From: Methanobacteriota archaeon
GTDB taxonomy: Archaea > Thermoplasmatota > Thermoplasmata > UBA10834 > DTMW01
Assembly: GCA_011046235.1 (NCBI GenBank)
Contig: DSAX01000065.1
Location: 1-33,378 of the forward strand
Reading direction: 5' to 3'
DNA: 33,378 nt
Positions 10,029 through 14,720 of this stretch are shown one piece after another (within the stretch, counting starts at the first letter, position 1; the number at the start of each line of letters is the position of its first letter). A program made the position numbers and the translations under genes. The notes under the pieces are model-generated. The model worked only from the letters and a program-made list of their open reading frames with translations, did no database searches and had not been told where the DNA came from.

Positions 10029-11510
10029 ATGACGAAGATTTGCGTCCCCATTGCGGGAGACGACATGCTGAGTGCACTCGAATTGGCACATAAGGCAATC
10101 GCTGGAGGCGCAGACCTGGTCGAGATCAGAGCGGATCTCATTCCCGGAGCAACGCCCGACTCCATCGGACAGATGTTCGGGACAGTTCTCGGAAGATCGG
10201 TGATCACGCTGAGGAGCAGGAGCGAGGGGGGGGGATCCGATCTGATCGGAAACGAGAGGTCTTCCTGGATCCGAGCTGCTTTGGAGCTGCCAGCCGCATA
10301 CATCGACCTAGAAATTGACACAGATTCTGGACTGATTCCGGAGGCGAAAAGACTGGAAAAGAAGATCATAGTCTCAAAGCATTTCTTCGACGAATGGGAT
10401 GAAGGACTTGTTTCGGATTATCTCACCAGATGCTGCGAAGACGGATCGATTGGAAAGGTCGCTGCAAGAGTCGAAAGCGTCGTTGATGCAATTGACCTGC
10501 TGAAGCTCATACCAAAGATCGGTTACGACAACCACGCACTGATGGCCATGGGAACAGGAGCGGAAATAACGAGGGCGATCGCAAATGCCGTTGGATCGAG
10601 TGTGGTCTTCTGCGCCCTCGATTCCGGAAAACAGGTCGCGCCCGGTCAGCTCGACCTGCGCTCTCAGAAACGCGTTACCGGTGATAACAGCGTCATCGTT
10701 GGGCTCATCGGACACCCGCTTCACCATTCCCTTTCACCGGTCATGCATAACGCGGCTTTCGACGCGCTCGGAATACCTGGCATATACCTGCCATTCGATA
10801 TCCCGAATCCCGAAATGGTAGATTCCTTTCTCAGGGACTGTGCGGACCTGAAGCTGCGGGGTATGAATGTCACGATCCCGTATAAGGAGGTGGCATTCCG
10901 GTCGGTCGATGAGATCGAAGGAGACGCTCAGAGGGTTGGGGCGATCAACACAATAGTAATCGACGGCCAAGGCGGACTTCATGGATACAACACCGATATA
11001 TTCGGCTTCTCGGAAGCGGTCCGTATCTCGGGTTTTGACCCGTCGGGCAAGCGAACTCTGATTGTAGGAGCTGGAGGCGCTGCGAGGGCGGCCGTCCTCG
11101 CTCTCGACAAGCTCGGTGCGGAGATATCAATAGCAAACCGCACGCCGGAGAGGGCGGTATCGCTGATTTCGGATATCGAGGTAAATGCAAGGACGATCGC
11201 TATTGCCGATCTGACAGACTCGGAACCGTTCAGCTTCATAGTCAACGCGACGCCTGTAGGAATGACTGGCTTCGGCGGTTCTGCGGCAATACCAGGCGAG
11301 CTCGTGGCCGAAGCGGAGGCGGTGATGGACATGATATATAATCCGCTGGAGACGAGGCTCATATCCGACGCAAGGAGCCATGGAAAACAGGCGATTTCCG
11401 GACTGGATATGCTACTGTTCCAGGGAGCGAAGGCCTTCGAGCTCTGGACAGGAAAACGGGCGCCTATAGATATTATGAGGGAGGCGCTTAAGAAGGAGGT
11501 CTCGGGATGA
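10029..11510 (+). CDS. aroDE: Bifunctional 3-dehydroquinate dehydratase (type I) / shikimate dehydrogenase
   Basis: N-terminal type I DHQD (KICVPIAGDD...VEIRADLI...IIVSKHFFDEW); C-terminal shikimate dehydrogenase (GLIGHPLHHSLSPVMHNAAFDALGI, NVTIPYKE, GYNTDIFGF, LIVGAGGAARA). One uninterrupted frame; start abuts aroB' stop (TAGATG). Confidence 0.93.
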   Translation: MTKICVPIAGDDMLSALELAHKAIAGGADLVEIRADLIPGATPDSIGQMFGTVLGRSVITLRSRSEGGGSDLIGNERSSWIRAALELPAAYIDLEIDTDSGLIPEAKRLEKKIIVSKHFFDEWDEGLVSDYLTRCCEDGSIGKVAARVESVVDAIDLLKLIPKIGYDNHALMAMGTGAEITRAIANAVGSSVVFCALDSGKQVAPGQLDLRSQKRVTGDNSVIVGLIGHPLHHSLSPVMHNAAFDALGIPGIYLPFDIPNPEMVDSFLRDCADLKLRGMNVTIPYKEVAFRSVDEIEGDAQRVGAINTIVIDGQGGLHGYNTDIFGFSEAVRISGFDPSGKRTLIVGAGGAARAAVLALDKLGAEISIANRTPERAVSLISDIEVNARTIAIADLTDSEPFSFIVNATPVGMTGFGGSAAIPGELVAEAEAVMDMIYNPLETRLISDARSHGKQAISGLDMLLFQGAKAFELWTGKRAPIDIMREALKKEVSG

Positions 11511-12385
11511 GACGTGGAAAAGCCTCCTGCAAGGGAGCGGTTACAGTCATGAACGCGATTCCGACAGGGATCGGATCTGCCTTGGGCATAACTCTTCAGA
11601 CGGATGCCGAGGTCGATATCGAGGACGGGGATTGCTCGATAGAAACCGATATCTGCGAGAAGGACGAGAACGACCTGCTCGCACGCGAATGCGTATACGG
11701 TGTATTCGAAAGGGCGGGAATTTCTGTTCCGCGGGTCACTGTGCGGACAAGATCATCGATTCCCATTTCACGAGGGCTGAAGAGCAGCAGCGCTGCGGCA
11801 AACGCAGTTGCCCTGGCAACGGCAAGAGGGCTGGGCATCGAACTGGAGGCCTTCGAGATAATCAAAATCGGCGTCGAGGCGGCCAAGAGAGCAAAAGTCA
11901 CGGTGACCGGGGCGCTTGACGATGCCTCAGCATGCTACTTCGGAGGAATCGTCGTGACTGACAACCTGGATATGAAGATCATAAAGAGGGACAAACTGGA
12001 GAACGAGGATCTCTGGATCATCCTGCACGTTCCGCAGGAGAAGATAAGGAAAAGCGGTCTTTCATCTTCGACCTTCTCCTCGGTAATCGAAAGATTCGCC
12101 GATGTTCAGAAGCTCGTTGACGAGGGACGGTACTTCGAAGCCCTGACATTGAACGGTGAGCTTTGCTCCGAAGCCCTGGGGCTGGATACAGACACAGCGC
12201 ACAAAGCACTGGACACGGGTGCCATCGCCGCAGGTCTTACGGGAACCGGTCCCGCAACCGCGATAATATGCGGTCAAGAATCCTTTGACGACGTCATGTC
12301 GGCGATCATGCATGATGGTTCCGACATAATCGTCGCAGAGCCAAACCTGACCCCGGCTCCGGAGGTGAGACAACGGCACTTCTGA
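11507..12385 (+). CDS. aroK: Archaeal shikimate kinase (GHMP kinase superfamily)
   Basis: GHMP motif ISRGLKSSSAAANAVALATARGLG; TVTGALDDASACYFGG; C-terminal GLTGTGPATAII. 4-bp ATGA overlap with aroDE, SD aaggaggt. Confidence 0.92.
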   Translation: MRRGKASCKGAVTVMNAIPTGIGSALGITLQTDAEVDIEDGDCSIETDICEKDENDLLARECVYGVFERAGISVPRVTVRTRSSIPISRGLKSSSAAANAVALATARGLGIELEAFEIIKIGVEAAKRAKVTVTGALDDASACYFGGIVVTDNLDMKIIKRDKLENEDLWIILHVPQEKIRKSGLSSSTFSSVIERFADVQKLVDEGRYFEALTLNGELCSEALGLDTDTAHKALDTGAIAAGLTGTGPATAIICGQESFDDVMSAIMHDGSDIIVAEPNLTPAPEVRQRHF

Positions 12386-13647
12386 TCTCGCACAGCTCAT
12401 TATCCGGGGAGATAGATGCCTCCCCTTCGAAAAGCTATACACACCGTGCAATTATCCTCGGAGCTCTATCGGGAGAGAAATTCCGGATCCAGAATCCCCT
12501 TATTTCGGATGATACGGCGTCAACCATGGCAGCTCTATCGATGATGGGAGCTACTATCGAGAGGACGAGCGATGCTATCATAATAGAACTGAAGGAACTC
12601 ATGGCACCCCTGGGAATCGTCGATGTTGGTAATTCCGGCACTACGTTACGACTCATATCGGGAACGGCGGCCCTGATTTCCGGAGAGACAGGATTGACGG
12701 GCGACGAGAGCATCAGGAAGAGACCGATCAAACCGTTGCTGAACGCTCTCAGGGAGCTCGGTGCGTCATGTAAAGGCACGGGCCCAGACGAATTGCCGCC
12801 TGTGAGCATCAGAGGCCCGATGACTGGGACCCAGGCGCATCTGCCAGGGGACGTCAGCTCGCAGTTCATCTCCTCTTTGCTGCTATCGTGTCCAATCAAG
12901 GAATCGGATACCGATCTGGAAATTACAGGCGAGCGGAAATCAAAGTCATATGTCGACGTGACTCTTCACATGCTCAGGGTGCTGGGAATAGAGATAGATG
13001 AGAGGGATAACGGATATCGGATCGGAGGCGGGCAGATACCGAAAGGAAAGGGATACGAAATTCCGGGCGACTTCTCGTCGGCATCGTTCCCCCTGGTCGG
13101 CGCTGCGATAACAGGCGGATCCGTAGTCATCAAAGGTCTGGATCCGAATATTCCGCAGGGCGATTCTCTGGTCATCGACGCCCTTGAGACATATGGTGCC
13201 GACATAACCTGCAGAAAGGGGTCCGTAATCTGCAGCGGCGCCAAGAAGACGCCATTCGAATTCGATGTCTCACATTCACCGGATCTGTTCCCTGTCCTTG
13301 CCGTGCTGGCTTCGACGGCTGAGGGTGAATCGACTCTGCTCGGTGGAGAACACCTGAAGTTCAAGGAAAGCGACAGGATATCGACGACGGTATCCATGCT
13401 CAATGATATGGGCGTCCATGCCGAAAGCAGAGGTGACGGATGTATAGTGTTCGGCACTGGCAGGATCAAAGGCGGTACTGTGAGCACCAAGGGAGATCAC
13501 AGGATAATGATGGCGGCGACAATTGCGGGGTTGGCCTCCGAGGAGGGTGTTAAAATGGATGACGATAATTCATATGCTGTTTCATACCCGAGTTTCCTGG
13601 ATGATATTCGCTCACTGGGAGGAGACGCGAAGGAGGTGACCGATTGA
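12382..13647 (+). CDS. aroA: 3-phosphoshikimate 1-carboxyvinyltransferase (EPSP synthase), probable CTG start
   Basis: The listed ORF starts at the internal ATG 12526. The open frame upstream encodes the conserved N-terminus LISHSSLSGEIDASPSKSYTHRAIILGAL...ISDDTASTMAA. No ATG/GTG/TTG exists in frame between the TGA at 12313 and 12526. CTG 12382 gives a CTGA overlap with the shikimate kinase stop; GGAGGTGAG at 12361-12369. Confidence 0.85.
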   Translation: MISHSSLSGEIDASPSKSYTHRAIILGALSGEKFRIQNPLISDDTASTMAALSMMGATIERTSDAIIIELKELMAPLGIVDVGNSGTTLRLISGTAALISGETGLTGDESIRKRPIKPLLNALRELGASCKGTGPDELPPVSIRGPMTGTQAHLPGDVSSQFISSLLLSCPIKESDTDLEITGERKSKSYVDVTLHMLRVLGIEIDERDNGYRIGGGQIPKGKGYEIPGDFSSASFPLVGAAITGGSVVIKGLDPNIPQGDSLVIDALETYGADITCRKGSVICSGAKKTPFEFDVSHSPDLFPVLAVLASTAEGESTLLGGEHLKFKESDRISTTVSMLNDMGVHAESRGDGCIVFGTGRIKGGTVSTKGDHRIMMAATIAGLASEEGVKMDDDNSYAVSYPSFLDDIRSLGGDAKEVTD

Positions 13648-14720
13648 ACTCATTCGGACAGATCTACAGGACGACCATATTCGGCGCCAGCCATGACTTG
13701 GCAATTGGCTGCGCAGTTGACGGATGCCCCCCCGGGGTCAGAATCTTGAAAGAGGAGATACAGAAGCAACTTGACAGGAGACGCCCTGGAGGATCGGACT
13801 TGAGCTCCCCCAGAAAGGAAAAGGACAGGATCGAGGTGCTCTCCGGCCTGCTGGATGGAAAGACTACCGGTGGACCCATTGCCGCAATAGTGCGGAACAA
13901 GGACGTCCAGCCGAGTGCATACGAGGCTTTCAGGAATGTCCCGAGGCCTGGTCATGCTGACTTCACCGCTTCAGTGAAGTACAAAGGACATCAGGACATC
14001 CGTGGCGGGGGCACCTTCTCCGGAAGGATGACCATTCCGATAGTCATCTCCGGATCGATCGCATCCCAGGTCATGAAGCCGAACGGCATTCGAATAGCCG
14101 CGCACAGCCTGAGGATCGGAAGGGTATGGGCGAAATCCAATCCGCCGGTTCCGAACATCGAGAGAATTGCCAGAAAAAACTCAGTCGCCTGCGCAGACCC
14201 AACAGTCGCGAAGCTCATGAAGGAGGAGATCCTCGACGCGAAGCGAGAGAAGGACAGCGTCGGCGGAATAATCGAATGCATAATGACCGGGCTCCCAGTG
14301 GGCGTCGGTGAGCCTTTTTTCGATTCGGTTGAGGGAGTGCTATCTCATCTTCTCTTTTCAATTCCAGCAGTTAAGGGGATAGAGTTCGGTGCAGGATTTC
14401 AGGTCGCGGAGATGAGGGGCAGCGAGAACAACGACGCCTTCGACATCCGAAACGGTAAGATCATCACAAGAACTAACAACGCCGGTGGCATTCTGGGAGG
14501 GATTTCGAACGGAATGCCAGTGATTCTAAGGGTTGCCGTCAAGCCCACCCCTTCGATTGGAAAATCCCAGCGCAGTATAAACTTGAAGGAAAAGAAGGTA
14601 ACAGATTTGGAGATAGCGGGAAGGCACGACCCATGCATCGTACCAAGGGCGGTTCCAGTTGTAGAATCGGCAGTCGCCATGGGAATCTTGGATCTCATGT
14701 TAGTGGGGGGCATACTCTGA
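13644..14720 (+). CDS. aroC: Chorismate synthase
   Basis: FGQIYRTTIFGASHDLAIGCAVDGCPPGV; RPGHADFTASVKY; RGGGTFSGRMT; TNNAGGILGGISNGMP; GRHDPCIVPRAVPVVE. TTG start in a TTGA overlap, SD aggaggtga. Confidence 0.96.
   Translation: MNSFGQIYRTTIFGASHDLAIGCAVDGCPPGVRILKEEIQKQLDRRRPGGSDLSSPRKEKDRIEVLSGLLDGKTTGGPIAAIVRNKDVQPSAYEAFRNVPRPGHADFTASVKYKGHQDIRGGGTFSGRMTIPIVISGSIASQVMKPNGIRIAAHSLRIGRVWAKSNPPVPNIERIARKNSVACADPTVAKLMKEEILDAKREKDSVGGIIECIMTGLPVGVGEPFFDSVEGVLSHLLFSIPAVKGIEFGAGFQVAEMRGSENNDAFDIRNGKIITRTNNAGGILGGISNGMPVILRVAVKPTPSIGKSQRSINLKEKKVTDLEIAGRHDPCIVPRAVPVVESAVAMGILDLMLVGGIL

Follow-up and report, generated by a model that had tools for sequence, protein, structure and literature searches.

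Comparative sequence evidence indicates that the aroA gene of the window (the whole 33,378-nt stretch of archaeal DNA analyzed here) has a non-canonical start, and the start codon is very likely ACG 12373. We propose, with a probability of roughly 0.87, that aroA is translated from this codon: a Shine-Dalgarno sequence would place the ACG, ribosomes translating aroK would cross the site, and initiator tRNA-Met with anticodon CAU would supply an N-terminal Met. The basis of this proposal, i.e., the position of the ACG, its conservation, the Shine-Dalgarno sequence and the geometry of the overlap with aroK, was observed directly. The product of aroA, EPSP synthase, is a key enzyme of aromatic amino acid synthesis.

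Gene model of aroA and the shikimate operon

The aroA frame contains an in-frame TGA at 12313-12315, and direct reading confirmed the observation of an earlier note that no ATG, GTG or TTG follows before ATG 12526. The same stretch was said to encode the conserved N-terminus of EPSP synthase, as it does: the frame translates as WFRHNRRRAKPDPGSGGETTALLISHSSLSGEIDASPSKSYTHRAIILGAL, with PSKS at 12424-12435, and the ORF matches TIGR01356 with profile position 1 at 12406 (E 4.6e-119; 397.9 bits against a cutoff of 287). Positions 12373-13644 match PF00275 (E 1.6e-106). The full-length match to the family model identifies the gene as aroA, encoding EPSP synthase. We also agree that a start at ATG 12526 would remove the active-site region. 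The features of the locus are as follows.

12373-13647, + strand: aroA (EPSP synthase), proposed coding sequence from ACG to stop TGA, 424 residues with the first read as Met; from TIGR01356, PF00275 and the start-column comparison
12373-12375, + strand: ACG, proposed aroA start codon, 17 codons before PSKS; from the comparison with relatives
12361-12368, + strand: Shine-Dalgarno sequence GGAGGTGA, with the first G 12 nt ahead of the A of the ACG; GGAGGTG invariant in 20/20
11507-12385, + strand: aroK, archaeal GHMP-type shikimate kinase (TIGR01920, E 2e-69); final 13 nt shared with aroA
12382-12384, + strand: CTG, the start favored in the earlier note, judged not to be a start; 21 nt from the Shine-Dalgarno sequence, in an unconserved column
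13644-14720, + strand: aroC (chorismate synthase), TTG start; Shine-Dalgarno sequence also GGAGGTGA, distance also 12 nt, an internal yardstick

The upstream part of the operon encodes a 2-amino-3,7-dideoxy-D-threo-hept-6-ulosonate synthase-type aldolase, DHQ synthase II, a fused aroD/aroE and the GHMP-type aroK, which ends in TGA 12383-12385. The remainder consists of aroA, aroC, chorismate mutase/prephenate dehydrogenase and aspartate-semialdehyde dehydrogenase. The sequence GGAGGTGAG, reported earlier at 12361-12369, is present there, 5ʹ of the ACG. Counted in alignment from the first G to the first base of the codon, the Shine-Dalgarno distance is the same for the ACG, the aroK ATG and the aroC TTG (12 nt each).

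The start codon in relatives

Relatives were sampled from the window's family, order and class (Thermoplasmata), together with named records, and columns were counted back from PSKS. The order members are all metagenome-assembled and include records CP070748.1 (Euryarchaeota archaeon bin352), JAJISI010000074.1 (Thermoplasmatota bin18) and JAEHCM010000005.1 (Thermoplasmata SG225.bin4). In the 20 order members readable at the start column, the codon is ACG in 18 and GCG in two. Thus, the alignment with relatives that the earlier note called for finds ATG, GTG and TTG absent from this column in 20/20. A non-canonical codon is conserved at the homologous start position, and the strong Shine-Dalgarno core GGAGGTG accompanies it in every one of these members. 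Since the lack of a canonical start in the column, the Shine-Dalgarno sequence and an ACG at a fixed position recur together in 18/20 order genomes, the arrangement is more than a chance feature of one sequence.

The conserved N-terminus extends 5ʹ of any ATG, GTG or TTG in the window and in most order members. In a few members, a GTG, ATG or TTG follows the start column at a distance of 2-4 codons. The two GCG-bearing species have an ATG 3 or a GTG 4 codons downstream; hence, a slightly later start may serve there. Among archaeal loci outside the order, 49/59 have ATG exactly 17 codons before PSKS, and the remaining named loci mostly start one codon off or have CTG in the column. Class members have ATG there, with one GTG, other than a sister family (f23) in which the column holds GTG (5), CTG (5) or ATG (1). 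CTG in the start column was seen at L032, L033, L035, L186 and L189, all from f23, and at L070, a Thorarchaeota contig; the CTG-started aroA of f23 overlaps aroK as CTGA. Separately, in family f9 one locus (L178, genome G027) has ACG at column -18, where other f9 members have ATG; an ATG follows two codons later.

The window comes from a draft genome in 154 contigs, and the earlier note regarded an assembly indel as the main competing explanation. However, 17 other genomes, with protein identities of 43-57% and the single-contig CP070748.1 among them, have the identical Shine-Dalgarno-ACG arrangement. These independent relatives refute the idea that an assembly or sequencing error erased a canonical start, and we give it practically no weight.

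The earlier note considered CTG 12382 the probable start, with ACG 12373 as an alternative. The overlap of this CTG with the aroK stop as CTGA is real, and CTG is the strongest commonly tested codon beyond ATG, GTG and TTG, at 0.86% of AUG in E. coli (PMC11497404). Moreover, the CTGA geometry does exist in relatives; however, in f23 it is found at the homologous start column and not at the column of CTG 12382, which lies three codons further 3ʹ. The latter column has CTG in only 3/20 order members, the others having GTA, ATA, GTC, AGG, CTA or ATG, and the aligned Shine-Dalgarno distance would be 21 nt rather than 12. We therefore consider a start at CTG 12382 very unlikely and prefer ACG 12373, which combines a conserved column with the usual Shine-Dalgarno distance of the operon.

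Is the ACG itself under constraint? We mapped changes on a protein tree of the order (20 members). All seven positions of GGAGGTG were unchanged, including three that are aroK wobble bases. The C and G of the ACG are the first and second bases of a conserved aroK Arg codon; hence, only the A, an aroK wobble base, provides independent evidence. It changed twice, whereas upstream aroK wobble bases changed 7.95 times on average, about four times as often; 9 changes fell on the wobble base at -3 from the ACG. The overlapping aroK Pro codon is CCA in 17/19 against a background of 15% of Pro codons in these genes, and the overlapping Arg codon is CGN in 20/20 against 32% of Arg codons, although formal probabilities for these biases are overstated because the sequences are related and kinship is ignored. 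In the window, a Gln codon, CAA, replaces CCA in aroK, such that the residue is changed and the A of the ACG is retained.

On the 5ʹ side of the Shine-Dalgarno sequence, codon periodicity is confined to the aroK frame, and from about +15 it is confined to the aroA frame. This switch indicates that translation in the aroA frame begins in the Shine-Dalgarno/ACG region. In the systems tested, initiation at ACG is very weak. Across the genome, GGAGGTG-N4/5-ACG shows no enrichment, and among 27 Shine-Dalgarno-ACG sites inspected, only those of aroA head a long ORF that has no other good start, which indicates that ACG starts would be rare even here.

Relative to aroK, aroA is read in the -1 frame, and the two genes overlap in every order genome, by 10-16 nt in 20/20 members. 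This geometry would suit an AroK-AroA fusion produced by ribosomes that slip by -1 ahead of the aroK stop, with GGAGGTG as the stimulator; Shine-Dalgarno-like stimulators occur in known frameshift sites. However, the 20 order sequences share no slippery heptamer (GGTTCCACG, GGTCCCACG, GAGACAACG), and no conserved slippery sequence was found before the 0-frame stop. Nor does the downstream gene generally lack a start of its own: homologues have ATG or GTG at the same column, often with a Shine-Dalgarno sequence, and relatives with an NTGA overlap have separate canonical aroA starts, in f23 with a similar Shine-Dalgarno sequence 5ʹ. Other archaea make AroK and AroA as separate proteins. Frameshifting is thus highly improbable.

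How could initiation at ACG 12373 work? We propose that ribosomes translating aroK run across the aroA start site, where the nearly full-length Shine-Dalgarno sequence would set the ACG in the P site at optimal distance. The ordinary Met-tRNAi (anticodon CAU) would then initiate at the ACG even though the second base is mismatched, and the product would begin with Met, as M-ALLISHSSLSGEIDASPSKS. As for origin, the end of aroK in the sister families overlaps the aroA start as NTGA. The AroK C-terminus is ...REVVP or similar in f23 and ...REVVPRLL in the window's order. The ancestor may have had the overlap that these families still have. A single T-to-C change, from ATG(A) to ACG(N), would have abolished the stop of aroK and extended its product by the conserved Pro-Arg-Leu-Leu tail. 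Initiation at the ACG, Met as the first residue, coupling to aroK and this evolutionary path are inferred. The ACG now lies within an aroK Arg codon, and reversion to ATG would consequently replace that arginine. This constraint would be a non-adaptive reason for retention of the ACG; regulation, through a low output of AroA, is an equally possible reason.

Initiator tRNA and other non-canonical starts

A search for the initiator tRNA with the exact sequence GGGCTCRTAACCC returned no match, which led us to an altered anticodon stem. The initiator tRNA-Met genes of the order (A1:U72, anticodon CAT) read TCAGG-CTCATAA-CCTGA, i.e., they have A29:U41, in each of the 18 order genomes in which the stem was read, including that of the window.

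L147:1368-1443 (genome G000, contig C127), and also L148 and L211-L226: initiator tRNA-Met with A29:U41, from the anticodon-stem reading

The class relatives checked retain GGG in this stem; f23 keeps GGG even though it has CTG aroA starts. All initiator genes read have anticodon CAT, and none has the CGT that would read ACG. The C-terminus of a uS9-like protein in genome G012 ends in QKSYR and looks ordinary. We discarded AGG..CCT matches in families f3, f9 and f23 that were located outside tRNA genes. Apart from this, initiator tRNA genes of f23 and f9 (L198-L207, L208-L210) have an apparent intron-like insertion just 3ʹ of the anticodon.

The three G-C pairs of the initiator tRNA are described as present almost everywhere and as important for the fidelity of initiation (PMC7531240). 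The 16S rRNA of E. coli makes contact with pairs 29-41 and 30-40, and CUG is no longer discriminated against once 30-40 is altered (PMC11497404). The replacement of the near-universal G29:C41 by A29:U41 is a possible enabling factor for the ACG start, as a correlation within one lineage.

We also surveyed genome G012 (1.6 Mb) against part of genome G010 (0.8 Mb), both inside the order, and kept only hand-checked cases with a conserved N-terminus, a well-placed Shine-Dalgarno sequence and no canonical start.

L266:7296-7760, - strand; L355; L302:3653-4117, - strand: ATP-cone proteins with ACG in the start column; TTG in G018 (L348)
L323:14173-15201, + strand: DHQ synthase II, apparent CTG start in G012
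L245:14635-15252, - strand: CDP-alcohol phosphatidyltransferase-like gene, apparent CTG start in G012
L322:15270-15722, + strand: cytidylyltransferase gene, apparent CTG start in G012
L250:9057-9428, - strand; L287:682-1050, + strand: response regulator, conserved ATC at the start position behind GGAGG; GTG three codons later in G010

The ATP-cone protein (PF03477) has ACG in its start column, with TTG in G018 and ATG in G000 at or next to the column. Both ATP-cone paralogues of G012 have ACG, and in a G012 copy the frame lacks canonical codons between the upstream stop and a point at least 40 codons downstream. The cytidylyltransferase gene has CTG in G012 versus TTG in G010. It is conceivable, if doubtful, that a relaxed start rule applies across the order, in which A29:U41 lowers discrimination and ACG, CTG and ATC serve as stable, conserved starts behind strong Shine-Dalgarno sequences in several genes, that of aroA being the most widely conserved.

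These other starts also bear on mRNA editing. Conversion of ACG to AUG by C-to-U editing, as in plastids, would require a change only at the C of the ACG, and such editing is known in plant organelles. However, we know of no mRNA C-to-U editing in archaea, and the CTG and ATC starts of the order are beyond repair by this route. We regard editing as a most improbable source of the aroA start.

Significance and comparison with known systems

What is the significance of an ACG start in aroA? Gene finders that accept ATG, GTG and TTG would cut the active-site lysine region (PSKS) from EPSP synthase throughout the order. A natural ACG start kept order-wide would widen the set of archaeal start codons. 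It would also be a test case for the strength of the Shine-Dalgarno sequence, overlap with the upstream gene and initiator tRNA structure as determinants of start-codon fidelity in archaea. Furthermore, with the changed initiator tRNA, the old question of what role the three G-C pairs play can be put to the test in nature.

Natural non-canonical start codons are already known, and an ACG conserved across an archaeal order would be a variant of this kind. Streptomyces sigR (GTC) and bacterial infC (ATT/ATC) likewise have conserved natural starts outside ATG, GTG and TTG, with an extended Shine-Dalgarno sequence (PMC5472188); that of sigR, AGGAGGTG, is thought to stabilize a weak initiation complex (PMC5472188). 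However, these are bacterial genes subject to discrimination by IF3, whereas archaea use aIF1, aIF1A and aIF2. In contrast to sigR and infC, the aroA codon, ACG, has its mismatch at the second base, and the gene encodes a biosynthetic enzyme.

Closer to the window, aroA of f23 (soil Thermoplasmata) and of the Thorarchaeota locus L070 is non-canonical at the same column, and in f23 it also overlaps aroK. Unlike the ACG of the window, the CTG of f23 is mismatched only at the first base, keeps the 4-nt NTGA overlap and occurs with a GGG stem. For the initiator tRNA, the nearest parallel is in Mycoplasma: as described by Ayyub et al. 2018 (cited in PMC10568206 and PMC7531240), the first G-C pair is also A-U there, and non-canonical starts occur in the same organisms. 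In M. pneumoniae (PMC10568206), the stem is AU/GC/GU and is accompanied by changes in rRNA, uS9, uS13 and IF3, whereas the stem of these archaea is AU/GC/GC.
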